Of a stretch of 64,000 bases of DNA, positions 15,801-55,396 are shown piece after piece; position 1 is the stretch's first letter; each line of letters begins with the position of its first letter. The position numbers were made by a program, and so were the translations under genes. The stretch covers positions 1 through 64,000 of the forward strand of contig JAJTFH010000005.1 in the NCBI GenBank assembly GCA_021298395.1. The letters run 5' to 3'. Under the pieces are notes generated by a model that saw nothing but the letters and a program-made list of their open reading frames with translations, ran no database searches and was not told the DNA's origin. This DNA comes from Gemmatimonadota bacterium. GTDB lineage: Bacteria; Gemmatimonadota; Gemmatimonadetes; Gemmatimonadales; Gemmatimonadaceae.

Positions 15801-15822
15801 CGGACGATGCGCTGCACCAGGC

Positions 15823-17391: not shown

Positions 17392-17876
17392 GGCGTCTTC
17401 TCCTTGCGAGGATCCTTGAGCATCAATATCTCCTGTCGCGTGTTACCGAACTCATCGATCGCCACCACGACCTCTTTGGCACGGATCGCCGTGACCCGAA
17501 TGCGTCCAAAGACCGAGCCCACCTTGGCCCGATAGAGCTGGTTCGTCGAAACATCCTTCATCATCGCCACCGACTGGCTCCCCGTCGGATCTACGAGGAT
17601 CCCCGTGACCCGGAGGTCGGCAAAGAGGGGACGGACCTCTCCGCTGGCGATCAGCGAGGCGAAGGGATCACGACGCCCCCGACGCTCGTAGGAGAATTCC
17701 TCACGGAGCAAGGTGACGCGCCCCGTCGAATCGGTGGCGATCATCGCGTTCGCCGCCTTGGCCCGCGGGGCAGCCGTAGGCGCCGTCCTCGGCACACCAC
17801 CCTGGGCCGACGCTGGCCGAATCGGCCCGACGAAGACCAGGCCGCCTACCAGAAGCAGCCAGACCCGGGTGATCAT
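17388..17876 (-). CDS. pilP: PilP-like pilus assembly lipoprotein/periplasmic protein
   Basis: Position between pilO and pilQ; 'RRGRRDPFASL…VRPLFADLRVTGIL' PilP-like core. Confidence 0.7.
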   Translation of the reverse strand: MITRVWLLLVGGLVFVGPIRPASAQGGVPRTAPTAAPRAKAANAMIATDSTGRVTLLREEFSYERRGRRDPFASLIASGEVRPLFADLRVTGILVDPTGSQSVAMMKDVSTNQLYRAKVGSVFGRIRVTAIRAKEVVVAIDEFGNTRQEILMLKDPRKEKTP

Positions 17877-19161: not shown

Positions 19162-19165
19162 GCGA

Positions 19166-20212: not shown

Positions 20213-20362
20213 GACGGGAGCGAAGGGGACGACCTACGACAACCGAGGAACGTTGCCCCTCGGGTGACGACGGGCCGGCACGCGATGACGCTCTATGGTA
20301 GAGCACCGCCGCTGAAACTATAACGAATTACATGGGGGGAGGTCACACCCTCGGCGGCCAGG

Positions 20363-20830
20363 TCATTCCCCAGGTCGCGCGAAGATCGCGCCGGCAGCGG
20401 CGGGGCGAAGGGTGGATCCGTAGCAGCGCATGCCGGCCGGGGTCTGTTCGACGGAATCGGGGACGAGCCAGACGAGAACCCGGCGGCGCGCCCCTCGTGG
20501 GCCGGTCGCGTCGATCTCCGCGAGGACCACCGCCGCACCGACATGACGCCAGCGCACCTCGACTCCACGCCCACCGTCGAGCGACCAGCGCTGTCTCCAC
20601 AGACGAAGGGGAACAGACAGGCACAGGTCGGGCACACTCGGTGGAGTGGTGGCCACCTCGAGCCCGAATATCAACCCGCGGTACGCGTCGAGCGCGTCCA
20701 TGGCCACGGTCGACCTCTGGACCGCTGTACTGGCGCGCCCCAGCGCGATCGCCGCCAACGCGGAGAGCCAGAGCACGATGAAGAGGATCTGCGGGAGGAG
20801 GAATCCCCCCCTATGGTCGCGCTGCCGCAT
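20363..20830 (-). CDS. PilX/GspK-like minor pseudopilin
   Basis: 'RGGFLLPQILFIVLWLSALAAIALGRAS' prepilin-like N-terminus (GG then hydrophobic helix); within the pilin cluster. Confidence 0.55.
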   Translation of the reverse strand: MRQRDHRGGFLLPQILFIVLWLSALAAIALGRASTAVQRSTVAMDALDAYRGLIFGLEVATTPPSVPDLCLSVPLRLWRQRWSLDGGRGVEVRWRHVGAAVVLAEIDATGPRGARRRVLVWLVPDSVEQTPAGMRCYGSTLRPAAAGAIFARPGE

Positions 20831-21617
20831 TCCCTATCGTGCCTTCGAATGGAGCATCGACACCGTACACGCGCACGCCGACATGCACCCACCCCATCAG
20901 CGAATCCTGTCGGAGGGTGAGTCCGCCCTCTGCTCGGGAACGAAGGGGTCCCACGATCGGTTGCACAGGGCCACAGATCCCCTGAGGACAGGCGCGCCAC
21001 CCCAGCATCCATCCCTGCCCGGCCGTAGGGTAGGTCAGGAGGCGGATCTCACGAAACACTTCCGCGGGGCTCCCCGGGGTGAGCAACCACGAGGTCTGCA
21101 GGGTGAGGCGCACCACCTGACGATCCCGTAGCTCTGGAGAGGCAAAGGGCGTATCCGTGCCACATCCCTCAGCCGCCGCGAGCCGACTGACCTCGACGAT
21201 GCGCGACGTATCCCATCGCGGACCCTCCGATGAGTCCTCTCGGTAGACCTCGAGCAGATCCCCCTGCGCGGGCATATCACTCGCGAACGTGAGCGCGTCG
21301 AGGGAGCCCGGACTCATCGGTGCAAGGGTGATCGAGGAGGGCCCGACGGCACAGGTGACACCGGCAACTAGGCGCAACTCCGCTTGGAGTGCCGTGTCAC
21401 CGAGGACATACGGGCGCCGGAGCTGGTATCCGATCGTCGACAGCACGGAGAGGACCTCATGCCCCAGCCGTTCGGCCTCTCCCCGACGCGCAAGCTGAGC
21501 CGAGGTGCGCTGCATATGGAGGAGTGCCCCGACCGACGCTCCCGAGACGATGCCCCCGACGGTCAGCCCCACCATGAGCTCCACCAACGTGAGACCGGAC
21601 CGGATCCTCATCCGCAT
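20811..21617 (-). CDS. PilW-like minor pilin (prepilin-type N-terminal cleavage/methylation domain)
   Basis: 'RSGLTLVELMVGLTVGGIVSGASVGALL' class III signal peptide. Confidence 0.8.
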   Translation of the reverse strand: MRMRIRSGLTLVELMVGLTVGGIVSGASVGALLHMQRTSAQLARRGEAERLGHEVLSVLSTIGYQLRRPYVLGDTALQAELRLVAGVTCAVGPSSITLAPMSPGSLDALTFASDMPAQGDLLEVYREDSSEGPRWDTSRIVEVSRLAAAEGCGTDTPFASPELRDRQVVRLTLQTSWLLTPGSPAEVFREIRLLTYPTAGQGWMLGWRACPQGICGPVQPIVGPLRSRAEGGLTLRQDSLMGWVHVGVRVYGVDAPFEGTIGNAAARP

Positions 21618-21958
21618 CGGCGCCTGACCGCCAAGGCGAGGTGGACGATGCGAGGGGGATGACCCGCCTCGACCACGCCCTGAAGCTCGACGATGGAATC
21701 CAAGCGTCGCAGCCGCCAGCGCGAGGACACTGACCGGTGATCCGTGGTGGTCCACGAGGAATCTTGGGTGGGGCAGGCGCTGCGTTCAAACGCCTCGAGG
21801 TGGGCGAGCGCCACACGCGCACCCACGATACGTCGCCAAGCCCACAGCTCCGTGCGTTGGGCGTGCACGGCCCCGGCGATCGCTCCGGTTGCCCCAACGG
21901 TGAGCAGGAACAGGGCGACGAGACACTCGGCGAGGGAGATTCCGGGACGTTGACTCAT
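21608..21958 (-). CDS. PilV-like minor pilin
   Basis: 'MSQRPGISLAECLVALFLLTVGATGAIAGAVHAQRTE' class III signal peptide with Glu at +5. Confidence 0.75.
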   Translation of the reverse strand: MSQRPGISLAECLVALFLLTVGATGAIAGAVHAQRTELWAWRRIVGARVALAHLEAFERSACPTQDSSWTTTDHRSVSSRWRLRRLDSIVELQGVVEAGHPPRIVHLALAVRRRCG

Positions 21959-22122
21959 GCGTCAGGAAGATCGACGAGATCGTCCAGGCTCTATCACCTT
22001 CCAGCCGCCGCTACCACACTGGGAACGCACCCCGGTCCTGATGCGGAACAACCCGTCCGCACGGGAATGGCCCGGGCGCACACTGGCCACCCGCCGGGCA
22101 ACACCGTTTCCTCGTCACAAAA

Positions 22123-22141
22123 CACGGGAGGGGGCTGGGTT
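22123..22141 (-). terminator. Rho-independent terminator downstream of pilA (full hairpin 22123-22168)
   Basis: Perfect 19-bp inverted repeat CACGGGAGGGGGCTGGGTT / AACCCAGCCCCCTCCCGTG with 8-nt loop; followed on the minus strand by TTTT. Confidence 0.85.
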
Positions 22142-22231
22142 CGCGCAGGAACCCAGCCCCCTCCCGTGACACCGGCTGCCCGCTCAGGTACGCCCTAAGC
22201 GGAGAGACTCACAGCGCTCGCACCGTCGAGC

Positions 22232-22615
22232 TTACGGGGCTTCGTCCTCACAGACCGGCGCACCAGTCGCGGTCGAATCCGTGCCAACCTTGATCGTGCA
22301 CGGACGCGTCGCCCCGGAAGCGGACGCAGTGGCTTGCCAGCCACCCTCCAAAGTGCCCAGGGTGATCGTGACACCAGCCGACGGGGTGAAAAAGCTCGAG
22401 AGCTTCGCCACGTCAGCAACCTCGTAACTGCCGCTGTCAGCGAAATACGATTCCTGGGCCGTCTGGAGGTTTCGGAGATCCGATTTGAGGCTTGACTCGA
22501 CCGCTCGTGATTTCGTGCTGCCAAACCGGGGAATCGCGATGGCGGCCAGGATGCCGATGATCACAACGACGATGAGTAGCTCGATCAGGGTGAAACCGCG
22601 ACGCATCTGAGACAT
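22232..22615 (-). CDS. pilA: Type IV major pilin
   Basis: 'MRRGFTLIELLIVVVIIGILAAIAIPRFGSTKSRAVESSLKSDLRNLQTAQESYF', C-terminal Cys pair. Confidence 0.93.
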   Translation of the reverse strand: MSQMRRGFTLIELLIVVVIIGILAAIAIPRFGSTKSRAVESSLKSDLRNLQTAQESYFADSGSYEVADVAKLSSFFTPSAGVTITLGTLEGGWQATASASGATRPCTIKVGTDSTATGAPVCEDEAP

Positions 22616-22665
22616 GACGACTCCTATAAGGCGGATGGATGATGACACAAATTGACCTGCCGAGA

Positions 22666-22694
22666 ATAGTACGATTTGGCGGCATGAGTGGCAA
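22666..22694 (-). promoter_or_regulatory. Putative sigma70-type promoter of pilA
   Basis: Minus strand TTGCCA-17 nt-TACTAT located ~50 nt upstream of the pilA ATG; AGGAG Shine-Dalgarno just before ATG. Confidence 0.6.
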
Positions 22695-22695
22695 C

Positions 22696-24477
22696 TTATG
22701 GACGGACCCGCCCCCCGTTGAAGCTCAAGCGGGTCGCCACACGGTCGACTGCGAACACCGCCACGTCGAAGTCTCGACCGGTACGGTCAAATGGCCGGCC
22801 GGTCCCAACCCACGCATTGCGGGAATCAACCGAATCACTCGCCGCCAGGAGAGAATCTGCGACGAGTCGCATCCGAGCGAACACCTGGGGGGCAAACCCG
22901 TTGGCCCGCGCCGCTACCGCCAGCCGTCTCCCCTCGGCGAACCTGCGGAGGGAAAGGAGACAGGCTCCTTGGGTGATCCAAGCCTCCTCCGTGTTCGGGA
23001 ACCCAGCGAGGACCGGAGCGAGGATTGGCAATGCTTGGCCACACCGATGGGTCATCTGCAGGAGCCGCGCGTACTGGAGACGCGGCTGCGGCGCGGTCGG
23101 CATTAGGGTGACCGAGCGAGCGATGTATGCCTCCGCCCGCTCGGTGCTCCCCAAGCGGAGATACAGCTCACCGACCGCGGACTGCCCTCGATAATTCGTC
23201 GGGGCGTCTGCGACCAGCGTCGTGAACACGGTCAGCGAATCCGCCCAGGTCGGCTGTCGCGTCGCGCTCTGCCACCCACCGGCGACCACCAACGCGACCG
23301 CCGCGATCACCACGAGACCCCGGAGGCGCTGGTACCGCGACCAAATCCCTTGGAAAAGGCACCCCGCGAGGAGACCGAGACCGGCACTGGGAAGGAAGAG
23401 GGTCCGCTCCGCCAGCAGGATTCCCGTCGGGAAGAGCAGATTGGACACCAGCAGGAAGGTCAGGGGGATCCAGACCAGGGCGAGCAGCATCCCCCCAGCC
23501 CGCACCCGCCATGCCTGACGGGAGAGGACCACGACCCCGATCAGCATCAGCGCCGGTACGAGATGCGGTGCGCCGAGGGTCCGGTGAATGGTCACCTGCT
23601 GCGGGGAGTAGTCCGCGTACAGTCGCGCCGGCCACACGAGGAGCCGAAGGGTCTCCGGCCAGAGTCCCACCGCCCCCCAGATGCGCTCCCCGTGTGTAAG
23701 CCCGACAAGGGCATCATGGGGCACACCGCTGATCCGACCGAGGACGAGTGTCCGTAGGGTGAGATAGACCACGGTCAGGAGGGCGACGGCTCGGACCATG
23801 CCCCATCCCCGAGCCGCCTCCATCGGTCGCCACCCCTGACCCGATCGCCACAGGATGAGCTCGACCGCGACCAGGAGTGCTGGCAGCACGATCGCATGTT
23901 CCTTCGACAGCAGCGCGACGGCATACAAGATGAGTATCCCGACCACGGCACCCCGGGTGAGGCCTTCAGACCGTCGGGACCGTACATAGAGATTCACCGA
24001 CGAGATCAGCGACAGCCCGACCAGTAACTCCGCCTGGCCCACCACATTGGCCACGGCCTCCACATGGGCCGGATGGATCGCGAAAAGCGAGGCCCCAACG
24101 AGCGCGGCACGCGGCGAAAGGAAGTGCTCACAGAGGGTCAGGGTAGCGACCGAGGCCGCAGCGTATAGCCCCACGCTGACGGCATGAAACAGCCACGGCG
24201 CGCCATCGCCCAGCGTCCACTGGAGACCGAACAGGGCGAGGGTCAGCGGCCGATAGAGATCCGGAGGGAAGGCGCCGGTCCAGTAGGTCTCGCCGAAGAG
24301 ACGCCAGAGCTGCCGCCATTCGTGTATTCGCTCGTTGTCGACGATCATCGGCAGATCGTCATAGGCGAATCCATTGGACAGGCCCGTCGCGGACGCCGCG
24401 ACCGCGAGTGCCGCGACGATCGCGACCCTCCACCATCGGGCCAATCGCAGATTATCCTCCCCTGCATGGCTGAGCAT
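22696..24477 (-). CDS. Multi-TM glycosyltransferase-like protein with C-terminal TPRs (TMTC-like)
   Basis: 'YDDLPMIVDNERI', 'YRPLTLALFGLQWTLGDGAPWLFHAVSVGLYAAASV', 'ERTLFLPSAGLGLLAG', TPR-like C-terminus; ATG at 24477. Confidence 0.8.
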   Translation of the reverse strand: MLSHAGEDNLRLARWWRVAIVAALAVAASATGLSNGFAYDDLPMIVDNERIHEWRQLWRLFGETYWTGAFPPDLYRPLTLALFGLQWTLGDGAPWLFHAVSVGLYAAASVATLTLCEHFLSPRAALVGASLFAIHPAHVEAVANVVGQAELLVGLSLISSVNLYVRSRRSEGLTRGAVVGILILYAVALLSKEHAIVLPALLVAVELILWRSGQGWRPMEAARGWGMVRAVALLTVVYLTLRTLVLGRISGVPHDALVGLTHGERIWGAVGLWPETLRLLVWPARLYADYSPQQVTIHRTLGAPHLVPALMLIGVVVLSRQAWRVRAGGMLLALVWIPLTFLLVSNLLFPTGILLAERTLFLPSAGLGLLAGCLFQGIWSRYQRLRGLVVIAAVALVVAGGWQSATRQPTWADSLTVFTTLVADAPTNYRGQSAVGELYLRLGSTERAEAYIARSVTLMPTAPQPRLQYARLLQMTHRCGQALPILAPVLAGFPNTEEAWITQGACLLSLRRFAEGRRLAVAARANGFAPQVFARMRLVADSLLAASDSVDSRNAWVGTGRPFDRTGRDFDVAVFAVDRVATRLSFNGGRVRP

Positions 24478-24921
24478 CGTGAGCAAGAATCTAGCGAGGG
24501 CGGCCTCCGCATCTCCCCGCTGCTCACCATCCCCGCGCACGAACTCACCATCCACGCCACCCGCGCCGGGGGCCCCGGCGGGCAGCACGTGAACACCAGC
24601 AGCACCCGGGTCGAACTCACCTGGTGCATCGCGACCTCGCGCGCGCTCACCCAGGCCCAGCGCGAGCGCCTCCTGGCGCGGCTCGCCTCTCGGCTCGACT
24701 CGGCCGGCACGATCCGTATCGTCTCCGCCGAGACCCGAAGTCAACGGCAGAACCGTCTGCGCGCGCTGGAACGACTCGCCGAGATGATCGCCGCTGCGCT
24801 CGTGGTCCCGAAGGTGCGAAAGAAGACCCGCCCGACACGGGGGTCGGTCGAACAGCGCTTGTCAGAGAAGAAGCGGCAGACGGAGCGAAAGACGAACCGT
24901 CGCTGGCGCGGCGAGGATTGA
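24466..24921 (+). CDS. arfB: ArfB/YaeJ-like peptidyl-tRNA hydrolase (GGQ domain)
   Basis: 'ATRAGGPGGQHVNTSSTRVEL' GGQ motif, basic C-terminal tail 'KKTRPTRGSVEQRLSEKKRQTERKTNRRW'. Confidence 0.85.
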   Translation: MAEHREQESSEGGLRISPLLTIPAHELTIHATRAGGPGGQHVNTSSTRVELTWCIATSRALTQAQRERLLARLASRLDSAGTIRIVSAETRSQRQNRLRALERLAEMIAAALVVPKVRKKTRPTRGSVEQRLSEKKRQTERKTNRRWRGED

Positions 24922-24973: not shown

Positions 24974-26410
24974 TCAGCGCCCATTGTCACCGATCAGCAA
25001 CGACGGGTCGCCCAGGGCGACCACCAGCGCGCCGAGCGCCGCCGCCCGGCGCCCCTCCAGCTGCGCGAGCCGTAACCGCTCATCGAGCACGGCGCGCTCC
25101 CGGAGGTTCACGATCAGCAACGAGCTCGCCCCCGTCTCGAACCGCCGCTGCTCCGCCACGAGCAGGGCCTCCGTCGCGACAATCACCCGTCGCTGCCCCG
25201 CAAGCTGCCCCTCGACCCCGCGGAGCTCGACCGTGGCGCGATCGACCGCGAGCGCGACGTCGCGCCGGACGCGGTCCCGCTCCCACCGGAGCTGGGTGGT
25301 GCGCGCCTCAGCGGAGCGCAACCGCCCGAACTCCCGGCGCGCGAGGAGCGGGAGACGGGTCGAGACGCCGGCCTTGTAGTCCTCGCCGCTCAGATCGAGC
25401 GCCCCGAACTCACGCCCCGCCCCGAGCCCCGCGACCTCCAGGTTCGCCGATGGCACCACCGAGACCAGTGCGAGCCGACGCTGCGCATCGGCCTGCAACC
25501 AGCGCACCTGCACCTGCTGCACCGCCGGGTGCCGATCGATCGCCCCCGTGAGAGTCAGTCGCGAGACCACGAGCCGCATCCCAGCGGGGGCGCTCGTCGC
25601 CGGAAGCGCGACCGGCTCCCCCTGCGCGCCCCAGAGATACCCCGTGACCACGAGGCGCGCGGCCTCGCGCGCCGCGCGCGCATCGATCGCGAGCACGCGG
25701 CGTCGCTCCCACTCCGCGAGGGCCTCGACGCTATCGATCGCCGCACCGGCCCCCGCGATCACCCGCTTCCGCACCGCATCGAGTCGGAAGGCCGCGAGCG
25801 CCACCCCCTCCTCCGCGATCCGGAGCCGTGCCTCCCCCTCCCACCAGCTCCCCCAGTCACGCGCGGCCCCCTGCAACAGCCGCGCGACCGCGAGGTCGCG
25901 ATCGGCATCGGCCCCCTCGTCGGCGAGCTCGGCCTGCCGGAGCGCGGTGCGTCGTTCGTCGGTGAGGAGCCGCGGACCGATCGGGAGACTCACCCCCGCC
26001 GAGAGGAGCCCCTGCCCCGGCGTCTTCCGCTCAGGATTGATGATCTGCCCTGCCGCACGCTCCCATCCCATCGTGAAGTCGAGCCCCCACGGCGTCGGCA
26101 CGGTCAGTCGCGCATCGAGCTCATCGAAGTAGCCGATCCCGTTGAATCGCTTGAGATCCCAGGTGGCAGAGATGGAGGGATCGAACCCCCCACGAGCAAC
26201 GCGCAGCTCCTGTGCGACCTGCCGCCGCTGCTCCATCGCCTGCTGCGCCAACGGGTGCGTGTCGCGCACGCGCGACAGGAAGGCCTCGAGCGAGAGGGAA
26301 TCGGCCCCCTGCCCCACCACCGCCCTCGGCGCGATGAGTCCAGCGAGGAGCACGGCGAGGCGTGCGCCCCACCGCACCGCGGTGCCCCACCGCATCAGAC
26401 GGCCGATCAT
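24974..26410 (-). CDS. TolC-family outer membrane efflux protein
   Basis: Signal peptide, 'SLSLEAFLSRVRDTHPLAQQAMEQRRQVAQEL', coiled-coil repeats; operon with HlyD and ABC genes. Confidence 0.85.
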   Translation of the reverse strand: MIGRLMRWGTAVRWGARLAVLLAGLIAPRAVVGQGADSLSLEAFLSRVRDTHPLAQQAMEQRRQVAQELRVARGGFDPSISATWDLKRFNGIGYFDELDARLTVPTPWGLDFTMGWERAAGQIINPERKTPGQGLLSAGVSLPIGPRLLTDERRTALRQAELADEGADADRDLAVARLLQGAARDWGSWWEGEARLRIAEEGVALAAFRLDAVRKRVIAGAGAAIDSVEALAEWERRRVLAIDARAAREAARLVVTGYLWGAQGEPVALPATSAPAGMRLVVSRLTLTGAIDRHPAVQQVQVRWLQADAQRRLALVSVVPSANLEVAGLGAGREFGALDLSGEDYKAGVSTRLPLLARREFGRLRSAEARTTQLRWERDRVRRDVALAVDRATVELRGVEGQLAGQRRVIVATEALLVAEQRRFETGASSLLIVNLRERAVLDERLRLAQLEGRRAAALGALVVALGDPSLLIGDNGR

Positions 26411-27705
26411 GGCGTCTTGGCGCCGCCCGAGCCCGCATCCGCCGGCAACGCCGGTGGGAACCCATTGAGCGTCCGCCAGATCTCGAAGCCGACCGTGACA
26501 TCGCGCAGGAGCGCCCACCCACGCGCCCCAGATCCGATCCGCAACTCATCGGGCCAGGCCTCGTCCTCGGGATCGGCCTCGACCAGGACCCGATACGATC
26601 CGGTCGCAGACGCCACCTCGTCGATCACCGCCACCCGACCCCCGAAGGTCCCCACCGCGACACTCGGCCAGCCGCTGAACTGCACCGCGGGCCACCCGTC
26701 GAACTCGATCCGCACCTTGTCGCCGATGCGCAGCAGCGGGACATCGCGCGCGCGCACGAGGAAGCCGACCGCGAGCGTCGCATCGTCGGGCTGGATCGTC
26801 GCGATCGCCTCCCCCTCCTTCACGACCTCCCCGACCCCGGCGCGCAGCGCGCGCACCACGATCCCATCGCGCGGCGCGCGCACCACCAGGAGGTCACGTC
26901 GCCCTTCGAGGTTGTCGCGACCGGACTGCAGCTTCGCCACCTCCGCTGCCCCCTCTGCCGCCTCGGCGAGGGTGCCGTCACGGTCGGACTCGACCTTCGC
27001 GATCTTCTCCGCGTATTCCGCGTCGACGCCGCGCCGCTCGGCCTGCGCGGTATTGAGCGCGGCGGCCTGCTCGATCGCGAGCGCCGAGGCGCGCTGGGCG
27101 CGCTGACGCGCCACCTCGAGCTCGAGCGCCGACTGCAGACCATCGCGCACGAGGGTCACGGTCCGGTTGAGCTGCACGGTGGCCAAGGAATCCTCGAGCC
27201 GCGCGGCGGCGAGCGTCGCGCCCCACTGTGTGATCCGATTGTCGGCCTTCACGCGCGCGGCGACCCAGGCGCTATCGAGCGCCCGGAGCTGCCGCGTGAG
27301 CGCCGCCGCCTTGCTCCGCTTGGCCTCGACCGCGGCCTCCTTCTGGCGCACCTGCTCCCCGGCGCGCTCGAGGACACGAGGATCGAGATAGGCGTCCTTC
27401 ACCTCGGTGAGGGTGACGATCGGATCACCCACCTTCACCACGGCGCCCTCCTGCACATACCAGCGCACGATGCGTCCCCCGACCGCGGCCACCGCCTGGT
27501 GCGGACGCGCCATCGGGTCGAGCGCGGTCACGTCCCCATTCGCCTGGATGTTCTGCTGCCAGGGGAGGAAGGCGACGATGATCAGGAAGAGTCCCATCCC
27601 ACCGAGCCACTGAGTCAGGCGGCGGAAGGAGGGTTGCTTCGCCAACAGCTTGACGCTGTCGAGCTCTGCGCCGCCGTCGTTCAGGAGATCGAGTTCGCTC
27701 GCCAT
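26407..27705 (-). CDS. HlyD-family membrane fusion protein
   Basis: N-terminal TM, 'GGRIVRWYVQEGAVVKVGDPIVTL', coiled coil, 'VVRAPRDGIVVRALRAGVGEVVKEGEAIATI'-type lipoyl halves. Confidence 0.88.
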   Translation of the reverse strand: MASELDLLNDGGAELDSVKLLAKQPSFRRLTQWLGGMGLFLIIVAFLPWQQNIQANGDVTALDPMARPHQAVAAVGGRIVRWYVQEGAVVKVGDPIVTLTEVKDAYLDPRVLERAGEQVRQKEAAVEAKRSKAAALTRQLRALDSAWVAARVKADNRITQWGATLAAARLEDSLATVQLNRTVTLVRDGLQSALELEVARQRAQRASALAIEQAAALNTAQAERRGVDAEYAEKIAKVESDRDGTLAEAAEGAAEVAKLQSGRDNLEGRRDLLVVRAPRDGIVVRALRAGVGEVVKEGEAIATIQPDDATLAVGFLVRARDVPLLRIGDKVRIEFDGWPAVQFSGWPSVAVGTFGGRVAVIDEVASATGSYRVLVEADPEDEAWPDELRIGSGARGWALLRDVTVGFEIWRTLNGFPPALPADAGSGGAKTP

Positions 27706-29885
27706 CAGAGCACGCGCCGTTCGGTGGAGAGGAGTGCCGCCATCTGCGGGGTACGCGCCGCCTCCGTCCAAGGCGCGTTGAGCTGGAGCTGCCCATCATC
27801 GAGGACGAGCACGCGATCGCTCAGGGCGAGGAGATCCTGCGAGTGCGCGACGATCACGAGGGTCCACGGCGCCGACCGATCGGTGAGCGCCGTGACGAGG
27901 GCCCGACGTGCCTCCGGTTCGACGGTCGCGAGACATTCGTCGATCAACAGGAGACGGGGTCGTGAGGCGATCGCGCGGGCGATGAGGAGGCGCGTGCGGA
28001 GCGTCGAGGGCAACCCACGGCCACCCCCCGCCAGCGGGGTGCGCAGGGCGAGCGGGAGGCGCTGGATCTGGTCGGCGGCGCCGACGACGCTCAGGGCGGC
28101 GAGCACTTCCGCCGTCCCCACGCCGGAGCGCCCAAGGGTGATGTTCTCCTCGACGGTCCCTTCGAAGAGATCGGCATCGCCGAGCAGGAGCCCCACGCGA
28201 TCGCGCACGGTGGCCGGGTCGAGATCCCGGAGGCTCAGCCCATCGATCTGCACCGTCCCCTCGTAGCCGGTGAGGAGTCCCGCGAGCACCGCGAGCAGGG
28301 TCGATTCTCCTGACCCATCAGCACCCGTCACCGCGATCCGTTCCCCCGGCGCCACGGTGAAGGTGAGGTCGGCCAGGGCTGCGCGCTCACTCCCCGGATA
28401 GCGATAGGAGAGCCCATCGACCTGGAGTGCGACCCCGCCCGTGCGCGCGGGGATCGCCAACCCGACCGCCGGCTCGACCGCGAGATCGGTCACGCCGCCG
28501 AGCTTGTACACCGAGGTCATGACATCGTAGACCTCGGCGAGGGACCCGACGAGCCTCTCGATCCCGGCGAGCACGGTGACGATCACGAGCTCCGCCGCGA
28601 CGAACTGCCCGAGGGTGATCTGCCGATCGATGACGAGGACGCTCCCGAGGATGAGGAGGGCACCGGTGACCACGGTCTTGAAGCCGATCGCCGCCCACGC
28701 CTGGGTGACGAGGACACGGAAATGCCGCTGCCGATAGCGGAGATAGCCGGCGACATGTCCATCCATCTTGTCGAGCGCTGGCGTCGCCCGTCCCGCCGCC
28801 TTGAAGGTGGTCGCCGCGCGCGCCACCTCCTCGAGCCAGTGCACCGTGCGGTACTTGTACGCGCTCTCGAGGAGACTCGTCTCCAACCCACGCGGCCCCG
28901 TATAGCGCACGATGAGGGCGAGCGTGACCACCAACCCGAGCCCGAAGAGGGTGAAGTACGGGTGGTAGAAGGTGAGGAGGAGAAGACCGAAGATCACCTG
29001 CAGCAGCGCCGTGGTGGTCCCGGTGAGCAGCTTGCCCAGGCTCTTCTGGATCGTGACGACCTCGAAGAATCGATTCATCCGCTCGGGGAGATCCTCGCGC
29101 CACGCCTCCTCGGTGCGGATCCGCGGCACACGGAGGGAGAACTCGAGCGCGACGCGCGCGAAGATGCGCTGTTGGATCCGCTCCACCGCCGCCAACTGCA
29201 ACACCTGCAGCGCGCCCGTGGCCAGCGTCCCCGCCACCACGAACCCGATGAGGAGGACGACCGGCTGGAGGAAGAGCCCGCCCGAGACCAGCCCGATGAT
29301 CGCCTGGACACCGAGCGGGAGGGTAAGGCTGAGGAGACCGACCAAAGTCGCGTAGCCGTAGACGAGCCCGATGTTCCCCCTCTCGAGGAGGAGGAGCTGC
29401 CCGAGCCGCTCGAGGGGCCCCGCCTTCTCCGCCGCCTCGGTCGAGGCCTGCTGCACACCGACGACGGGAAGGAGCACCGCCACCACGCCCTCGGGACCGG
29501 CGATCCGCGTGAAGAGGTCGGGGACCTCCATGCGTTCGGGCGCGGCGAACCCATCGGCGTCGCCGAAGCGAACGGTCAGGGACCCCGCCCCCACGTCGTC
29601 GACCATCGCGACCCGGGTCGCCCCCTGCGCATCGTCACCGATGACCAGGAGCGGGGCGGTCCCGCGCGCGAGGACGCTGGCCCAATCGCCACGTCCCGCC
29701 GACCTTCGTACGAAGGTGACCCCGGCTCGGCGCCCCACCTCGACCACGGCCTCGGTGAGCGCGGCAGCGGGCGCCTCGGGGAGCACCATCCGCCGGATGT
29801 CCTCACGCCACCCCTCCGGCGGTTCGTCCATGCGAAGTCGGCCGAGGATGTCGCGTGTCAGGCGTTCAGGGAGGGGTCGACGCAT
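27705..29885 (-). CDS. ABC exporter (TMD-NBD fusion) with degenerate nucleotide-binding motifs
   Basis: N-terminal cytosolic domain, 6-TM-type exporter core, NBD with 'GADGSGESTL' (Walker A Lys to Glu), 'LLLIDE' Walker B, 'VAHSQDL' H-loop; ATGA overlap with HlyD gene. Confidence 0.88.
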   Translation of the reverse strand: MRRPLPERLTRDILGRLRMDEPPEGWREDIRRMVLPEAPAAALTEAVVEVGRRAGVTFVRRSAGRGDWASVLARGTAPLLVIGDDAQGATRVAMVDDVGAGSLTVRFGDADGFAAPERMEVPDLFTRIAGPEGVVAVLLPVVGVQQASTEAAEKAGPLERLGQLLLLERGNIGLVYGYATLVGLLSLTLPLGVQAIIGLVSGGLFLQPVVLLIGFVVAGTLATGALQVLQLAAVERIQQRIFARVALEFSLRVPRIRTEEAWREDLPERMNRFFEVVTIQKSLGKLLTGTTTALLQVIFGLLLLTFYHPYFTLFGLGLVVTLALIVRYTGPRGLETSLLESAYKYRTVHWLEEVARAATTFKAAGRATPALDKMDGHVAGYLRYRQRHFRVLVTQAWAAIGFKTVVTGALLILGSVLVIDRQITLGQFVAAELVIVTVLAGIERLVGSLAEVYDVMTSVYKLGGVTDLAVEPAVGLAIPARTGGVALQVDGLSYRYPGSERAALADLTFTVAPGERIAVTGADGSGESTLLAVLAGLLTGYEGTVQIDGLSLRDLDPATVRDRVGLLLGDADLFEGTVEENITLGRSGVGTAEVLAALSVVGAADQIQRLPLALRTPLAGGGRGLPSTLRTRLLIARAIASRPRLLLIDECLATVEPEARRALVTALTDRSAPWTLVIVAHSQDLLALSDRVLVLDDGQLQLNAPWTEAARTPQMAALLSTERRVL

Positions 29886-29954
29886 CGGAATCAAAAGGGG
29901 AGTATTTCTATCCGAAAAAATGTAACTCGTTGCAAAGCAACAGCGCACACGGCG

Positions 29955-33030: not shown

Positions 33031-34221
33031 CTACTGCACCATGTTGATCATGTCGAAGATGGGGAGGTACATCGCCACCACCATCCCCCCGACGACGACG
33101 CCGAGGAAGACGACCATCACGGGCTCGAGGAGGGAGAGGAGTCCGCTGACCGCGGCGTCCACCTCCTCATCATAGAAATCGGCGATCTTGCCCAGCATCT
33201 CGTCGAGACCGCCGGTCTGCTCACCGACGGAGATCATCGAGATCACCATCGGTGGGAAGACCTGGCTCTTGGCCAAGGGAGCGGCGATGGTATCGCCGCC
33301 GGCGATCGAGGCCCGCGACTCCATGATCGCATCGGAGACGACGCGATTCCCGGCGGTCTTGGCCGTGATCTCCAATCCGTCGAGGATGCTGACACCGGAG
33401 CTGATGAGCGTCCCGAGTGTCCGCGTGAACCGCGAGACCGCAGACTTCCGCAGCATGTCCCCGAGGACCGGGGCATTGATCAGGATCCGGTCGATCACGA
33501 GGTGCCCGTCGGGCGTCTTGTAGTAGCGCTGGAGCGAGACGACGAACGCCGCGACCACGGCGATCACCACCCACCAGAAGCGCTGCAGGAACTCCGACAT
33601 CACGATCACGATGCGGGTGGGGAGCGGCAGGGCGACGCCCGCCGATTCGAACATGGTCTGGAAGGTCGGGATCACGACGACGAGCAGGATGACCACCGCA
33701 CCGAAGGCGACGCTCAGAATCACCGCCGGGTAAATCATCGCCCCCTTCACCTTGCGCACGAGGGCATCGTTCTTCTCCATGAACGTCGCCAATCGGAGCA
33801 GGATCGTATCCAGGATGCCACCCGCCTCTCCGGCAGCGACCATGTTCACATAGAGATCGGTGAAGGCATTCGGATGTTTGGCCAACGCATCGGCCACCGT
33901 GTGCCCGGACTCCACGTCGAAGACGACCTGCCGCGTCACCTCTTGGAGGACCGGGTTCTCCGATTGCGTCGCGAGGATGTCCAACGCCTGCACGAGCGGG
34001 AGGCCGGAGTTGATCATCGTCGAGAACTGTCGGGTGAAGATCACGATATCTCGCATCGTGACCTTGCCCGAGGTCTTCCGCTTCGTCACTTCGTCGAGCT
34101 TGACGACGGTCAGGCGCAGTCGCTTGAGCTGCGCGGCGGCATCGTCTCGGCTCGAGGCATCGATGGTCGCGGTGCGGACCTCGCCTTGGGCCGTCCGGGC
34201 GGTGTAGAGATAATTCGGCAT
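33031..34221 (-). CDS. pilC: Type IV pilus inner-membrane platform protein
   Basis: 'FTRQFSTMINSGLPLVQALDILATQSENP', 'FTRTLGTLISSGVSILDGLEITAKTAGN' T2SSF repeats. Confidence 0.95.
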   Translation of the reverse strand: MPNYLYTARTAQGEVRTATIDASSRDDAAAQLKRLRLTVVKLDEVTKRKTSGKVTMRDIVIFTRQFSTMINSGLPLVQALDILATQSENPVLQEVTRQVVFDVESGHTVADALAKHPNAFTDLYVNMVAAGEAGGILDTILLRLATFMEKNDALVRKVKGAMIYPAVILSVAFGAVVILLVVVIPTFQTMFESAGVALPLPTRIVIVMSEFLQRFWWVVIAVVAAFVVSLQRYYKTPDGHLVIDRILINAPVLGDMLRKSAVSRFTRTLGTLISSGVSILDGLEITAKTAGNRVVSDAIMESRASIAGGDTIAAPLAKSQVFPPMVISMISVGEQTGGLDEMLGKIADFYDEEVDAAVSGLLSLLEPVMVVFLGVVVGGMVVAMYLPIFDMINMVQ

Positions 34222-34230
34222 GGGGAGAGA

Positions 34231-35394
34231 CTAGCTCCGGGGCCTCGGCCCCGCCCCGCCCCCGTGCGGCTCGTCCGCCCCCGCGCGCCCGATCATCCGG
34301 AGGAACTCGTTGCCATCGGGACTGACCCGCAGGCAGTCCTCCTCCGTCACGAGATTCGCCTGATGGAGCTGCATCAAGGAATCGTTCAGCGTCTGCATCC
34401 CGAATTTCTTCCCCGACTGCATCATCCCGTAGATCTGGTGCACCTTGTCGTCGCGAATCAGCGCCCGGATCGCCGGCGTCGCGACCAGGATCTCCATCGC
34501 GGCCACGCGTCCCTTCCCGCCCTTCCTGGGGATGAGCGCCTGGGTGACGACCCCCTCGAGCACGAAGGCGAGCTGCGTGCGCACCTGCTGCTGCTGATGG
34601 CTCGGGAAGACGTCGATGATCCGGTTGATCGCTTCGGCCGCGCTGTTCGTATGCAACGTCGCGAAGGCGAGATGCCCCGTCTCCGCGATCGTGAGTCCCG
34701 CATGGATCGTCTCGAAGTCACGCATCTCGCCCACCAGCACCACATCAGGATCCTCGCGGAGCGCGTACTTGAGCGCGCTCGCGAACGACTTGGTGTCCGC
34801 ACCGACTTCGCGCTGATTGATGAGGCATCCCTGATGCTTATGCACGAACTCGATCGGATCCTCGACCGTGAGGATATGCCCCTTGCGCTCCCGATTGATC
34901 TTGTCGAGCATCGCTGCCAGGGTCGTCGACTTCCCGGAGCCGGTGGGGCCGGTGACCAAGACGAGTCCGCGGGGCCGCTCCGCCAGGTGCGCGATGACCG
35001 GCGGGAGCCCCAACTGCTCCACGGTCTGGATCAGGTGGGGGATCTGCCGCAGGACCATGGCGACGCACCCGCGCTGCCGGAAGCAGTTCGCACGAAAACG
35101 CGCCAGATGCTGGATCCCGAAGGAGAAATCGAGCTCATCCTCCTGCTCGAAGCGCTTCTTGTGGCTCTCCGTCAGGACGGAGTACGCGAGCTGTGTCGTG
35201 TCCTTCGGTTGGAGTATCACCTCCACGCGCGAGCGCCGCATCTCACCGTCGATCCGCAACATGGGGTGATTGCCCACGGTGAGATGCAGGTCGGACGCCC
35301 CCCGCTCGATCATCTCTTCCAAGAGCGTGCGGAGATTGAGGACGGACGAGGCGGTCGCCTCAGGGACCGACGACGGGACAGTCATGTCGCGCAC
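34231..35394 (-). CDS. pilT: Type IV pilus retraction ATPase
   Basis: 'GLVLVTGPTGSGKSTTLAAMLDKINRER', 'ALREDPDVVLVGEMRDFETIHAGLTIAETGHLAFATLHTNSA'. Confidence 0.95.
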   Translation of the reverse strand: MRDMTVPSSVPEATASSVLNLRTLLEEMIERGASDLHLTVGNHPMLRIDGEMRRSRVEVILQPKDTTQLAYSVLTESHKKRFEQEDELDFSFGIQHLARFRANCFRQRGCVAMVLRQIPHLIQTVEQLGLPPVIAHLAERPRGLVLVTGPTGSGKSTTLAAMLDKINRERKGHILTVEDPIEFVHKHQGCLINQREVGADTKSFASALKYALREDPDVVLVGEMRDFETIHAGLTIAETGHLAFATLHTNSAAEAINRIIDVFPSHQQQQVRTQLAFVLEGVVTQALIPRKGGKGRVAAMEILVATPAIRALIRDDKVHQIYGMMQSGKKFGMQTLNDSLMQLHQANLVTEEDCLRVSPDGNEFLRMIGRAGADEPHGGGAGPRPRS

Positions 35395-35419
35395 CGAGGA
35401 GCGGGGACGATGCCGGGGA

Positions 35420-37255
35420 TCACGCGCTGGTCTCGCGGACGACCTGTTCCAGCGTGGTGATCCCCTTCCAGACCTTGATCAGGCCGTCCATCCGCAGGGT
35501 CAACATGCCATCGGCGATGGCCGCATCGCGGATCTCCGCCGCGCCGACGTTCTGCAGGATCAACTTCCGGAGCGCCGGGGTCATGAACATCACCTCATAC
35601 GCGCCTTGACGGCCCTTCAAGCCCGATCCGCCACAGGCCTCGCACCCACGCCCCCGGAAGTACGGCAGCTGACGCACCTTGGTATCGAGCGTGACGGACG
35701 CCAAGAGCGATGCCGACTCCTTCGGCGCGCGGGCGATCATATCGCGGATCGACGGCTCGGTGAAGCGAAGGTCGCGCAACGACGTGTCCGATCCGAGTTT
35801 CGCGGCATCGAACTCGAGCGGATCCGGGGTGACCATCGTCTTACACCCCGAGCAGATGCGCCGAAGGAGCCGCTGGGCCAACACGAGGTTGAGCGCCGAG
35901 CTCACATTGAACGGCTCGAGCCCCATGTCCAGCAGGCGCGTCACCGTCTCCGCCGCGGAATTGGTGTGCAGCGTCGAGAGCACCAGATGCCCCGTGAGCG
36001 CCGCCTTGATCGCGATCCCACCAGTCTCGAGGTCGCGGATCTCGCCCACCATGATGATGTTCGGGTCCTGTCGCAGGAACGCCTTGAGCGCCGCGGCGAA
36101 GGTCATCCCGACCTCCGTGCGCACCTGCACCTGGTTCACCCCGTAGAGGTTGTACTCGACGGGGTCCTCCGCGGTCATGATGTTCGTGTCGACCGCATTG
36201 ACCTTGCTGATGCAACTGTAGAGGGTCGTCGTCTTCCCCGACCCCGTGGGCCCGGTGACGAGCACCATGCCGTAGGGATTCGAGACCGCCTCCATGAGCT
36301 CCTTCTCGGCGCGCGGCTCGATCCCGAACTTCTCGAGCTCCAGCGTCAGATTCCCCTTGTCGAGGATGCGGAGCACCACCTTCTCCCCGAAGAGGGTCGG
36401 GAGCGTGGAGACACGGAAGTCGATGACCTTCTTCCCCAACTTGAGCTTGATGCGCCCATCCTGCGGAACGCGCCGCTCGGCGATGTTGAGCGCCGCCATG
36501 ATCTTGAATCGGGAGATCAGGGCCGGCTGCATCCTCTTCGGGGGCTTCATCACCTCGATCAGCGCCCCGTCGATCCGATACCGTACCCGGAGGTCATGCT
36601 CGAAGCACTCGAAATGAATGTCCGAGGCGCCACGCCTCACCGCGTCGGCCAGGATCGCGTTGAGGAGCTTCACCACCGGGGCGTCGTCGACCGCGGCCGC
36701 CCGCGCCGCCGCCGACGTCTCCTCGGCGGTGGCCTCCATCACCTCGATGTCCGTCTCGACATCGAGCTCCTCCAGCTCGGTGAGGAGCGCCGACATCTGC
36801 TCCTCCGCCTTCGTCTCATACTGCCGGTCAATGACGCCCTTGAGGGTGTACTCTCCCGCGATCACCGGGAAGACGTCATACCGGGTCATGAACTTGAGGT
36901 CTTCGATGACCCCGAGGTTCGTCGGGTCGGCCATCGCCACCGTCAGGACCCGCCCATTCCGCTTGAGGGGCAACACCAAATGCGTGGTGGCCAGGTCTGC
37001 CGGAATCAACTTGGCGATCTTGGGGTCGACCTCGAACTTCGACAGGTCGACCGCCGGTACCTTGTAGTGCCGGGCGAGGAAGCGCGTGAGCTCGTTCTCG
37101 GGAATGAACCCGAGCTTCACCAGGTTGTAGCCGATCCGCGTCCCATGCTCCTTTTGCATGGCGATCGCCCGATCCAACTGCTCGCGCGTGATCTTCCCCT
37201 CCGCCAGGAGGAGGTCGCCGATGCGAACGGAAATCGTGGAGACGGGAGCGGCCAT
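35420..37255 (-). CDS. pilB: Type IV pilus extension ATPase
   Basis: N-terminal MshEN-like domain, 'VTGPTGSGKTTTLYSCISKVN', 'FLRQDPNIIMVGEIRDLETGGIAIKAALTGHLVLSTLHTNSA', Cys zinc motif. Confidence 0.95.
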   Translation of the reverse strand: MAAPVSTISVRIGDLLLAEGKITREQLDRAIAMQKEHGTRIGYNLVKLGFIPENELTRFLARHYKVPAVDLSKFEVDPKIAKLIPADLATTHLVLPLKRNGRVLTVAMADPTNLGVIEDLKFMTRYDVFPVIAGEYTLKGVIDRQYETKAEEQMSALLTELEELDVETDIEVMEATAEETSAAARAAAVDDAPVVKLLNAILADAVRRGASDIHFECFEHDLRVRYRIDGALIEVMKPPKRMQPALISRFKIMAALNIAERRVPQDGRIKLKLGKKVIDFRVSTLPTLFGEKVVLRILDKGNLTLELEKFGIEPRAEKELMEAVSNPYGMVLVTGPTGSGKTTTLYSCISKVNAVDTNIMTAEDPVEYNLYGVNQVQVRTEVGMTFAAALKAFLRQDPNIIMVGEIRDLETGGIAIKAALTGHLVLSTLHTNSAAETVTRLLDMGLEPFNVSSALNLVLAQRLLRRICSGCKTMVTPDPLEFDAAKLGSDTSLRDLRFTEPSIRDMIARAPKESASLLASVTLDTKVRQLPYFRGRGCEACGGSGLKGRQGAYEVMFMTPALRKLILQNVGAAEIRDAAIADGMLTLRMDGLIKVWKGITTLEQVVRETSA

Positions 37256-37385
37256 GATCCAAGGCGAGGGGGACACCGGAGGGGTTGCCTGACCGCACGA
37301 CCCCATCAAGAGAAGATAGCAAAGCTCGAGCGCACCGGGCGGCCAGGGGCGCGTCACGGATGACCGACCCTCGCACCCGACGGAC

Positions 37386-37889
37386 TCACGGAGGACGACG
37401 AGGGGAGCCAGAGAAGGTCACATACGGCGCCAGACGGGCGGTCGTCTTCTCTCCGATGCCCGGGACACGCATGAACGCCGTCGCCGAGCCGAACATCCCG
37501 CTTTGCTCACGGTCCTGGACGATCCGCTTCGCCAGCGCCGGTCCGATCCCCGGGAGGGTCACCAAGACCGATTCTGGTGCGGTGTCGAGGTCGACCGGCG
37601 GCGTCTTGGTCCGTCGCTCCGCCCGCGTCTCGCCTCGTGACGCGGTGGGCGCCACGGGTGGCAGCGGGGGCGACGAGACGGACCGCTTCGATGCGAAGGC
37701 CGGCGCACCTGCGCCACGCCGCCCGCGCGCCGCGAGCGCGCTATCCACGGCAGCGAGTTGGCCTGCGAGCGCCTCCCGCGCCGAGGGAGGCGTCTCCGCC
37801 TCTCGCCAGCGCATCACCCGCACCCCCGTTCCCAGCGAGAGGACAGCGGCGAGGAAGAGGAGCGCCTGACGTTCCGCGGGGGTGGGCAT
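37386..37889 (-). CDS. comEA: ComEA-like helix-hairpin-helix protein
   Basis: 'VDLDTAPESVLVTLPGIGPALAKRIVQDREQSGMFGSATAFMRVPGIGEKTTARLAPYV'. Confidence 0.82.
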   Translation of the reverse strand: MPTPAERQALLFLAAVLSLGTGVRVMRWREAETPPSAREALAGQLAAVDSALAARGRRGAGAPAFASKRSVSSPPLPPVAPTASRGETRAERRTKTPPVDLDTAPESVLVTLPGIGPALAKRIVQDREQSGMFGSATAFMRVPGIGEKTTARLAPYVTFSGSPRRPP

Positions 37890-37942
37890 CCCCCACCCTG
37901 CCCCAGGGAGGCCCCCCCAGCATCACCTCGCCATCGCGCCCA

Positions 37943-51725: not shown

Positions 51726-52217
51726 ATGTCCACGCCCATCGACCCCGCCCAGTTCCGGGCCGCCCTCGCGCGCTTCGCCTCCGGCATCACCGTGCTCACC
51801 ATGCGGGATGCGACCGGGACCGACCTCGGGATGACGGCGACCGCCTTCACCTCGCTCTCGCTCGACCCGCCGCTGATCCTGGTCTGCGTCGATGCGAACG
51901 CGACGATGGCGACGCCGCTGATCAAAGGCGCCGCCTTCGCGGTGCATGTCTTGCGCGAGGACCAGGAACATCTCTCGCGTCGCTTCGCCGCCACCACCGG
52001 GGATCGCTTCGCGGATCTCACCCTCGAGCGGTCACCCGAGGGAACCCCGCTCCTCCCCGACACGCTGATGCGGATGGAATGCGCGGCGGTCGCGCGGCAT
52101 CCCGGGGGGGACCATCACATCATCGTCGGACGTCCGCGGCGGGTGACGGTCGCCGCGATCGGCGAGCCCCTGCTCTATTTCCGTGGGCGGTACGGGCGCC
52201 TGGCGCAGACGCCCTGA
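51726..52217 (+). CDS. Flavin reductase-like (FMN-binding split barrel) protein
   Basis: 'FRAALARFASGITVLTMRDATGTDLGMTATAFTSLSLDPPLILVCVD'. Confidence 0.92.
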   Translation: MSTPIDPAQFRAALARFASGITVLTMRDATGTDLGMTATAFTSLSLDPPLILVCVDANATMATPLIKGAAFAVHVLREDQEHLSRRFAATTGDRFADLTLERSPEGTPLLPDTLMRMECAAVARHPGGDHHIIVGRPRRVTVAAIGEPLLYFRGRYGRLAQTP

Positions 52218-52238: not shown

Positions 52239-52697
52239 TCAGGGGCCCTGGGAGAGATAGCTCGCCGCGTAGCGATCGACGCTCTCGCGGATGATCCGCA
52301 TCGCCACATCGCTCTTCCCCCAGCCGCGGATCTCGACGCGCTTCCCCTCGAGGTCCTTGTAGATCGCGAAGAAGTGCTCGATCTCGCGGAGGGTGTGCTG
52401 TGGGAGGTCGGCGAGGTCGAAGTACTCGCCATGCGCGGGATCGTCGACGGGGACGGCGAGGATCTTATCGTCCGGCTCCCCCTTGTCGAGCATCTTGAGC
52501 ACCCCGACGGGGCGCACATCGATCAGGCAACCGGTGAAGGTCGGCTCCTTGATCATCACGAGGACATCGAGCGGGTCGTTGTCCTCGTGGAGCGTGCGCG
52601 GGATGAGCCCGTAGTCACCGGGGTAATGGACCGCCGAATAGAGGAGCACGAGGGTCGCCGCATAGGCGAGCCGGTAGTACAGCGCGTTGTCCGGCAT
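52239..52697 (-). CDS. Chimeric ORF: CcmD-like N-terminus fused to an N-terminally truncated inorganic pyrophosphatase
   Basis: 'MPDNALYYRLAYAATLVLL' (CcmD-like, directly after ccmC with tgATG overlap) joined to 'LYSAVHYPGDYGLIPRTLHEDNDPLDVLVMIKEPTFTGCLIDVRPVGVLKMLDKGEPDDKILAVP' (family I PPase from mid-protein onward). Confidence 0.7.
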   Translation of the reverse strand: MPDNALYYRLAYAATLVLLYSAVHYPGDYGLIPRTLHEDNDPLDVLVMIKEPTFTGCLIDVRPVGVLKMLDKGEPDDKILAVPVDDPAHGEYFDLADLPQHTLREIEHFFAIYKDLEGKRVEIRGWGKSDVAMRIIRESVDRYAASYLSQGP

Positions 52698-53395
52698 CAG
52701 CCCCCCACCGCCGCGTCGTCGAGTGCATCGCGTTCCACCGCGAGCGCCATCCGTGCCCGCACGAAGGCCACGTAGAGGAGCGTGAAGGCGAAGAAGGCGA
52801 AGAAGAAGGTCGTCACCATCACCGCCGGCATCGCGGGCCCCTCGGGCCGCGCCACCACGGGGAGGGGATGCAGCGTTCGGAAGAGATAGACGCTGAGATG
52901 GATGAAGGGGATCAATAGCGCACCGAGGATCCCGACGACCGCCGCATAGCGCGCGCGTTGCTCCCGCCCCGGGATCACCCCGCGGAGCACGAGATATCCC
53001 ACGTAGATGAACCAGAGGAAGAGGGTGAGCGTGAGCCGCGCATCCCAGGTCCACCAGGTCCCCCAGACCGGCTTCCCCCAGAGGGGCCCGGTCACGAGCA
53101 CCGCCGTGGTGAAGATCACGCCGACCTCGGCCGAGCTCTCGGCGAGGCGGTCGAGGCGCTGGTCCTTGAGGAAGAGCCAGAAGGCGCCGGCGAGCGCGGT
53201 CACGCCGAAGGCGAGGAAGGCGACCCAGGCCGCGGGGGCGTGCACGTAGAGGATCTTCTGTGCGAAGCCCTGGGTGGCCTCGGGCGGGGTGAACCAGATG
53301 GCCCGCCCATAGGCGAGCGCGACGACCGCGAGCGCGAGGAGCGCGACGGGATCGATGCGGCGCGAGGCCGAGGGGGTGGGCGAGAGGTCAGTCAT
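52697..53395 (-). CDS. ccmC: Heme exporter / cytochrome c biogenesis protein CcmC
   Basis: WWD-type motif 'WGTWWTWDARLTLTLFLWFIYVGYL', conserved His 'LYVHAPAAW'. Confidence 0.93.
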   Translation of the reverse strand: MTDLSPTPSASRRIDPVALLALAVVALAYGRAIWFTPPEATQGFAQKILYVHAPAAWVAFLAFGVTALAGAFWLFLKDQRLDRLAESSAEVGVIFTTAVLVTGPLWGKPVWGTWWTWDARLTLTLFLWFIYVGYLVLRGVIPGREQRARYAAVVGILGALLIPFIHLSVYLFRTLHPLPVVARPEGPAMPAVMVTTFFFAFFAFTLLYVAFVRARMALAVERDALDDAAVGG

Positions 53396-54074
53396 CGAGG
53401 GTCGCGGGGAAGACGAGCATGCAGGCGTACGCGAAGACGAGATCGAATGCCAACAAGATACGCAACCAGGCGAACGATTCGGCGAGGGGGCGTCCCGCGA
53501 GGAGCTTGGCGGTGGCCTGCGCCGCCGGCATCACGATGGGCACGAAGAAGGGGAGGGCGAGCACCGGGAGGAGGAGTTCCGCCAGCCGGGTGTTGGCCGT
53601 GAGCCCCGCGAAGAGGGTCCCCACCGCGACGAGCCCGATCGCGGCCAGGACCATCACCCCGATCAGCGCCGGCCAGGCCGCCCCGACCCCGACATCGTAG
53701 AAGAGGACCATCGCGGGGAGCGCGACCCCCTGCACCCCGAGGACGAAGGCGAGGTTCGCGAGCGCCTTCCCGACGAAGATCGCCTGCCGCGGGACCGGGG
53801 CGATCAACAAGGCATCCATCGCCCCATCCTGCGCCTCGACCCCGAAGGAGCGATGCAACCCGAGGAGCCCCGAGAAGGTGAAGGTCACCCAGAGGACACC
53901 GGGGGCGAGGTCCCCTGCCCCGACGGCGGTCGGGTCCCAGGCGAAGTAGAAGATCACGATCGCGAGCAACGAGAGGACGAGCGCCGAGAGGAAGGCGCTG
54001 CGCGTGCGGAACTCGATCGCGAGGTCCTTCCGCGCGATCAGCCAGGCCGAGGCGATGAGGCCGGGGGCGCTCAT
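53388..54074 (-). CDS. ccmB: Heme exporter protein CcmB
   Basis: 'LIARKDLAIEFRTRSAFLSALVLSLLAIVIFYFAW'; between ccmA and ccmC. Confidence 0.92.
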   Translation of the reverse strand: MSAPGLIASAWLIARKDLAIEFRTRSAFLSALVLSLLAIVIFYFAWDPTAVGAGDLAPGVLWVTFTFSGLLGLHRSFGVEAQDGAMDALLIAPVPRQAIFVGKALANLAFVLGVQGVALPAMVLFYDVGVGAAWPALIGVMVLAAIGLVAVGTLFAGLTANTRLAELLLPVLALPFFVPIVMPAAQATAKLLAGRPLAESFAWLRILLAFDLVFAYACMLVFPATLDD

Positions 54075-54769
54075 GCGACGAGGGCCCGGTAGGTGTCGGC
54101 GTACGCGAGGGGATCGAGCCCCTGGGCGGGCTCATGGCGGACGAAACGTCCCCCCTGCATGATCGCGGCGTGCGTGGCGAGGGCGAGCCCTTCGTGCAGA
54201 TGGTGCGTGACCACGACGATGGCGGCGCCGGCCTCGCGCCGCTCGCGCAGGAGCGCGGTGAGGGCGCTGGCCCCCTGTTCGTCGAGCCCGGTGTAGGGCT
54301 CGTCCGCCAGGAGGACGTCGGGGCCGTGCACGATGGCGCGGGCGATGGCGACGCGCTGCTGCATCCCGCGCGAGAGCTGGCGCACCGGGACATCCGCACG
54401 CTCCGCGATGCGGAGCGCGCGCAGCGCGCGATCGGTGGCGCCGTCGGGATCGGGGAGCCCGTAGAGGCGCGCGGTGAACGCGACGTTCTCTCGACCTGTC
54501 AGGGCCTCGTAGAGCATCGCGCGGTGCGAGATGAGGCCGATGTGGTGGCGCGCCTCGGGCGCCGGGAGGCGGACCCCGGCGACGCGCGCCTCGCCGGAGG
54601 TGGGGGAGAGCAACCCCGCGAGCAGGCGAAGGGTGGTGGTCTTCCCAGCGCCATTCGGGCCGAAGAGCGCCAAGCACTCTCCGGCCCGAAGGGAGCAACT
54701 CACGCCGTCGACGGCGCGCCGCCCACCGAACACCCGGACGAGGTGAAGGGCCTCGACGCGCGGCGCCAT
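54071..54769 (-). CDS. ccmA: Heme exporter ATP-binding protein CcmA
   Basis: 'LFGPNGAGKTTTLRLLAGLLSPTSG', 'LSRGMQQRVAIARAI', 'LLADEPYTGLD'. Confidence 0.93.
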   Translation of the reverse strand: MAPRVEALHLVRVFGGRRAVDGVSCSLRAGECLALFGPNGAGKTTTLRLLAGLLSPTSGEARVAGVRLPAPEARHHIGLISHRAMLYEALTGRENVAFTARLYGLPDPDGATDRALRALRIAERADVPVRQLSRGMQQRVAIARAIVHGPDVLLADEPYTGLDEQGASALTALLRERREAGAAIVVVTHHLHEGLALATHAAIMQGGRFVRHEPAQGLDPLAYADTYRALVA

Positions 54770-54791
54770 GCGATCGGGGGGGGAGCCCAGG

Positions 54792-55196
54792 TCAGGCCTC
54801 CCCGGTGATCGCCGTCTCGAGCTCGTCCGCGATGCCAGCGGCGAGGGCGACCGCGCCCGCCAGACTCTCTGGCGAGGCCTGCGTGGCGACCGGCAGGCGA
54901 TACAGCAGCAGGCTGCCACGGGTCATGAGCCCGCCGCCTCGCTTGGCACTGACCTGCTCGAGCAGCGACCCCATCAGGGCGAAGTTGCCCGCGAGCTCCC
55001 CGACGTCGGCGATGAAGCTCACGACGTACCGAAAGGCGTACGCGCCGATGGAATCGACATCACGGGTGATCCATACCGTCTGCGTCCGACCGCTCTCGAG
55101 CGGGACGATGATGCGCGCATCCCCATCCTCGTCGATCCGATAGTAGAGCGCGGTGGCATCGAGCAGGGCGCGGAAGTCGGCGGCATGCGGGGTCAT
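54792..55196 (-). CDS. Hypothetical protein upstream of ccmA
   Basis: ATG at 55196: 'MTPHAADFRALLDATALYYRIDEDGDARIIVPLESGRTQTVWITRDVDSIGAYAFRYVVSFIADVGEL'; same operon direction. Confidence 0.55.
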   Translation of the reverse strand: MTPHAADFRALLDATALYYRIDEDGDARIIVPLESGRTQTVWITRDVDSIGAYAFRYVVSFIADVGELAGNFALMGSLLEQVSAKRGGGLMTRGSLLLYRLPVATQASPESLAGAVALAAGIADELETAITGEA

Positions 55197-55396
55197 GGTT
55201 CCTCTCCTCGGGAATATAGCGGGATGCGCGGGGGAGACGACGGCGAGGGGCTCCTCTGGCGCCTCCGCGGCGACGATCGCGACGCGTCCATGGACGTGCG
55301 GCACAAGTTATCGTCGCGTGACCGGTACCGCGCCCACATCCCCGGGGGCTCGGCGGACCCTGCCGCACCGTTCCCGTGCGCCGTAGGATTGGTCGC

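Follow-up and report, generated by a model that had tools for sequence, protein, structure and literature searches.

Within the CcmABCD haem-release complex, CcmD is the small subunit; it has been described as essential and is required for the release of CcmE (PMC10457321), and the family I soluble pyrophosphatase (PPase; PF00719) is represented by E. coli Ppa (PDB 1faj). An H+-PPase is able to replace the essential soluble PPase in E. coli (PMC9959109), and some bacteria live on a membrane PPase only; Clostridium thermocellum has no soluble PPase (PMC7657619). Deletions between short direct repeats, produced by replication slippage and leaving in-frame fusions, form a third point of comparison. 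The locus described here joins a piece of ccmD to a piece of ppa. With the short-repeat deletions it has in common a loss of 218 bp, ends on a 9-bp repeat and the fusion of neighbouring genes, and it differs from clean slippage in that the product carries one extra CTC triplet. Its first 18 residues are identical to those of CcmD from G013, the closest relative, while PPase sequence takes the place of the second half of the membrane helix and of the Arg-rich cytoplasmic tail. From the soluble PPase it keeps 134 middle-to-C-terminal residues, including the D-x-D-P-x-D metal-binding signature, but it lacks the first 46 residues and with them the first barrel strands and four active-site residues. 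The fused gene reflects either a local mutation or an error of assembly, and adds no new protein family.

The fused reading frame

The window, i.e. the whole stretch of 64,000 nucleotides that was analysed, lies on contig C47; the assembly comprises 76 contigs, totals 1.82 Mb and is estimated to be 100% complete. It is the only assembly of the species that was available, and the named genomes closest to it are metagenome bins of Gemmatimonadota, several of them from lakes. On the minus strand, at 52239-52697, a 152-aa open frame consists of 18 CcmD codons followed by PPase residues 47-180, both parts being numbered as in the intact proteins of G013, and its translation starts MPDNALYYRLAYAATLVL-LYSAVHYPGDYG... 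The frame sits in the CcmD position directly after ccmC and begins MPDNALYY, with the same start and the same ccmC overlap as in G013; it is probably translated via coupling to ccmC. Residues 18-143 match positions 27-152 of the 153 in the Pfam profile PF00719 (E = 2.5e-48; 164.2 bits against a curated cut-off of 23.5), which places them in the family, and since the match begins only at profile position 27, the start of the pyrophosphatase is gone. The ORF with its coordinates, its CcmD-like start and its body taken from the middle of a PPase are thus just as the first-pass annotation had read them. The features of the region are as follows.

51726..52217, plus strand: flavin reductase-like gene, convergent, downstream of ppa; beside ppa in G004 too
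52239..52697, minus strand: fused ORF, 152 aa, CcmD 1-18 joined in frame to PPase 47-180
52239..52643, minus strand: 3' remnant of ppa (family I inorganic pyrophosphatase), 134 codons plus stop, without the first 46 residues
52643..52644, minus strand: deletion junction; 218 bp of G013 (L085:3055-3272) gone, ending at the 9-bp repeat CGTGCTCTA, with one extra CTC
52644..52697, minus strand: 5' remnant of ccmD, 18 codons MPDNALYYRLAYAATLVL; ATG overlaps the ccmC stop (TGATG)
52697..53395, minus strand: ccmC, intact
53388..54074, minus strand: ccmB, intact
54071..54919, minus strand: ccmA (ABC ATPase); the listed ORF may reach upstream of the true start

In the fused protein the CcmD helix is cut after L18 and the basic cytoplasmic tail is gone, so that a full helix followed by a tail is not present, and the best 19-residue hydropathy is 1.33, against 1.86 in CcmD of G013. 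Because the membrane helix is halved and the tail lost, the CcmD function of the gene would probably be lost as well.

The junction and the native gene order

The alignment of the window contig with the syntenic contig of G013 (C5, ~90% identical) is interrupted at 52643/52644, opposite G013 positions 23758/23539, by 218 bp, and a separate search with the G013 sequence returned the same limits. A deletion or join had been proposed from the window alone, at an 'L(L)YSA' coding stretch common to ccmD and ppa, within about 52632-52650; it can now be located between 52643 and 52644, and the ends of the missing DNA lie on the 9-bp repeat CGTGCTCTA, which encodes that very stretch. This repeat is the longest direct repeat, and the only one of 9 bp, in the ccmD-ppa stretch of G013, where its copies are 221 bp apart and coincide with both ends of the deletion; in G004 the corresponding direct repeat is 10 bp long. 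When a shift of 3 is allowed, a 9-bp repeat marks the two ends of only 0.16% of random 218-bp intervals on the G013 contig. If the two copies had exchanged cleanly, 221 bp would have been taken out instead of the 218 bp actually gone, and the product, CGTGCTC-CTCTA, has one CTC beyond such an exchange. Given this extra triplet, either the parental alleles were not the same or the deletion did not arise in a simple step.

Searched with the G013 sequence, the whole genome assembly of the window contains no other copy of the lost 218 bp. The N-terminal PPase protein segment was likewise sought there and not found, which extends its reported absence from the locus to the whole assembly, and neither a second family I PPase nor a family II PPase turned up across the same contigs. 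The genes ccmE and ccmF, together with ccmH, are intact on contig C6. The suggestion that the rest of the ccm operon had been lost here, i.e. that the operon was wholly truncated, has to be given up, as those genes reside on another contig and ccmD directly precedes ppa in the genus.

Comparison with relatives bears out that last point. In all ten same-genus loci that could be assessed (those without a contig-end cut), ccmC, ccmD and ppa are intact and adjacent, so the contact between ccm genes and ppa is the native order and not a product of the join; the ccmD-ppa fusion was looked for in the relatives and none carries it. For these comparisons CcmC was located by tblastn, a Trp-motif pattern being too strict. 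Intact CcmD in the same-genus relatives is 41-59 residues long, its coding sequence stopping at the ppa start or close by. In G013 the ccmD stop and the ppa start overlap by four bases (GTGA), and the CcmD start lies 269 nt ahead of the start of the PPase match, compared with 51 nt in the window. The neighbourhood of ccmC and ppa is not a feature of the whole family, since ppa in the other genera is intact and does not adjoin ccmC. The possibility of a homologous PPase subfamily naturally without its N-terminus was rejected after a survey of 80 related loci: the N-terminal motif was detected by pattern in 73, and of the other seven, four (L067, L074, L095, L108) carry it on inspection, two (L050, L080) run into a contig end, and in L098 stops interrupt the frame upstream of the PPase, a probable frameshift.

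The pyrophosphatase remnant and the membrane pyrophosphatase

In an alignment with E. coli PPase, whose active-site numbering and residue roles are used here, the fused protein retains Y51, Y55, D65, D67, D70, D97, D102, K104, Y141 and K142 as aligned, identical residues and is without E20, K29, E31 and R43, all four of which are present in the intact PPase of G013. The E. coli reference sequence was checked over its full length against PDB 1faj. With four active-site residues and the N-terminal strands gone, the PPase function of the fused protein is probably lost, as judged from the sequence. An AlphaFold model of the fusion has a mean pLDDT of 82.5, with residues 1-12 below 50, and gives TM-scores of 0.72-0.79 (by query length) against solved PPases; since the model was built on an alignment of PPases, part of the fold is imposed by it, and it is no proof that the protein folds or works.

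The remnant itself is ~97% identical to the matching part of the intact G013 protein. With G004 as the outgroup, 8 synonymous and 2 nonsynonymous changes fall on the window branch since the split from G013, neutrality over the whole of that branch is rejected (P = 0.0002), and the share of the branch compatible with a neutral remnant is roughly one fifth or less, values from three sequences and ten changes that serve as a guide only. An excess of protein change in the window remnant over G013 (2 of 10 vs 0 of 26 changes) was discarded as not significant (P = 0.07). The constraint on the remnant implies that the deletion is recent, or that the remnant is still selected, or that the deletion is absent from the cells.

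The gene for the membrane pyrophosphatase, hppA, is intact in the window genome and present in all 11 good-quality genomes of the genus. G035, a 100% complete genome from another genus of the family, has hppA and no family I PPase. It could be, then, that hppA compensates for the lost soluble enzyme. In a further genus, locus L124 (G022:C3:27305-27430) holds only a short C-terminal PPase fragment (a 70-aa frame), possibly a ppa pseudogene, in a genome with two hppA-like genes. Separately, the draft genomes G009 (C43, C91) and G002 (C158, C163) have a split or duplicated ppa at contig ends, probably owing to fragmentation.

Discussion

The explanation that we consider probable is a real, recent loss-of-function deletion of 218 bp that joined ccmD and ppa in this lineage. 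It can be envisioned that the two copies of CGTGCTCTA, 221 bp apart in the closest relative, misaligned, and that ccmD thereby lost its 3' half and ppa its 5' quarter. The frames of the two genes would have matched by chance and left an open fused frame, whose product would have neither CcmD nor PPase function, and the hydrolysis of pyrophosphate would fall to the intact membrane pyrophosphatase. A de Bruijn assembler would not collapse a repeat as short as 9 bp, and the short repeat, the absence of Ns from the window and the clean synteny with G013 on both flanks of the junction together favour a deletion that exists in the cells. Set against it are the extra CTC, the single assembly available for the species, the apparent lack of decay in the PPase remnant, to judge from the synonymous and nonsynonymous changes on its branch, and the fate of ccmD. 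Given that CcmD is described as essential (PMC10457321) and that the ccm system is otherwise intact, the fixed loss of ccmD would be somewhat surprising.

An assembly artefact, which we regard as unlikely, is the stronger of the alternatives. Here the cells would have intact ccmD and ppa genes, and the contig would owe its shortening to a chimeric read, to gap closing or to a minority variant. In its favour, a single event would disable two genes that are normally conserved, and the PPase remnant nevertheless appears constrained; the assembly is in 76 contigs, the relatives in the public collection are metagenome bins, one assembly of the species was available, and every other assessable genome of the genus is intact. 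On the other side, the sole repeat is far under the usual k-mer sizes, the lost piece has a G+C content (71% in G013) similar to that of its surroundings, and neither Ns nor a break in synteny marks the place.

A functional fusion appears improbable. In this reading selection would maintain a PPase-derived protein tethered to the membrane, which might serve as a regulator or as a scaffold on the CcmABC complex. The frame is open and in phase, but an in-frame join has a one-in-three chance of arising. Purifying selection acted on the PPase part over most of the branch, and that signal could wholly predate a recent event. Most metal ligands are retained and four catalytic residues are gone; the PPase-like fold is predicted by a model on which it was partly imposed. 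The topology of CcmD would place the PPase part in the cytoplasm, yet the hydropathy of the anchoring segment has fallen with the halving of the helix, and the fusion is absent from all relatives. The new membrane-anchored PPase-like protein that the first-pass annotation had entertained is disfavoured on these grounds. More doubtful still is a narrower version, in which a lineage-specific derivative tethered to the CcmABC haem exporter would no longer be catalytic and would still bind metal or pyrophosphate, acting as a sensor or a structural part.

If the deletion is present in the cells, the locus offers a snapshot of a freshwater lineage with a small genome in which the soluble pyrophosphatase is lost and the membrane pyrophosphatase stays, and in which ccmD is lost from a cytochrome c maturation system whose other components are intact. 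Should it be an error of assembly, it cautions against inferring gene fusions from single assemblies.

Other differences from the G013 contig

Nothing on the syntenic G013 contig corresponds to blocks of 4-9 kb at window positions 15809-24504, 25136-29918 and 33611-37924, and another such block lies beyond the window at C47 65613-70254. Opposite window positions 55249-55358, G013 has ~490 bp more (L115:3338-3936), with an open frame that, judged by eye, resembles a protein with a STAS domain and a zinc ribbon; a DNA search of the window's genome did not find this extra sequence, and the site may represent another small gene loss beside the fusion. At window position 43361, close to the 3' end of a gene, the window lacks 66 bp of G013 (33046-33111), just past a strong GC-rich hairpin that is common to both contigs.
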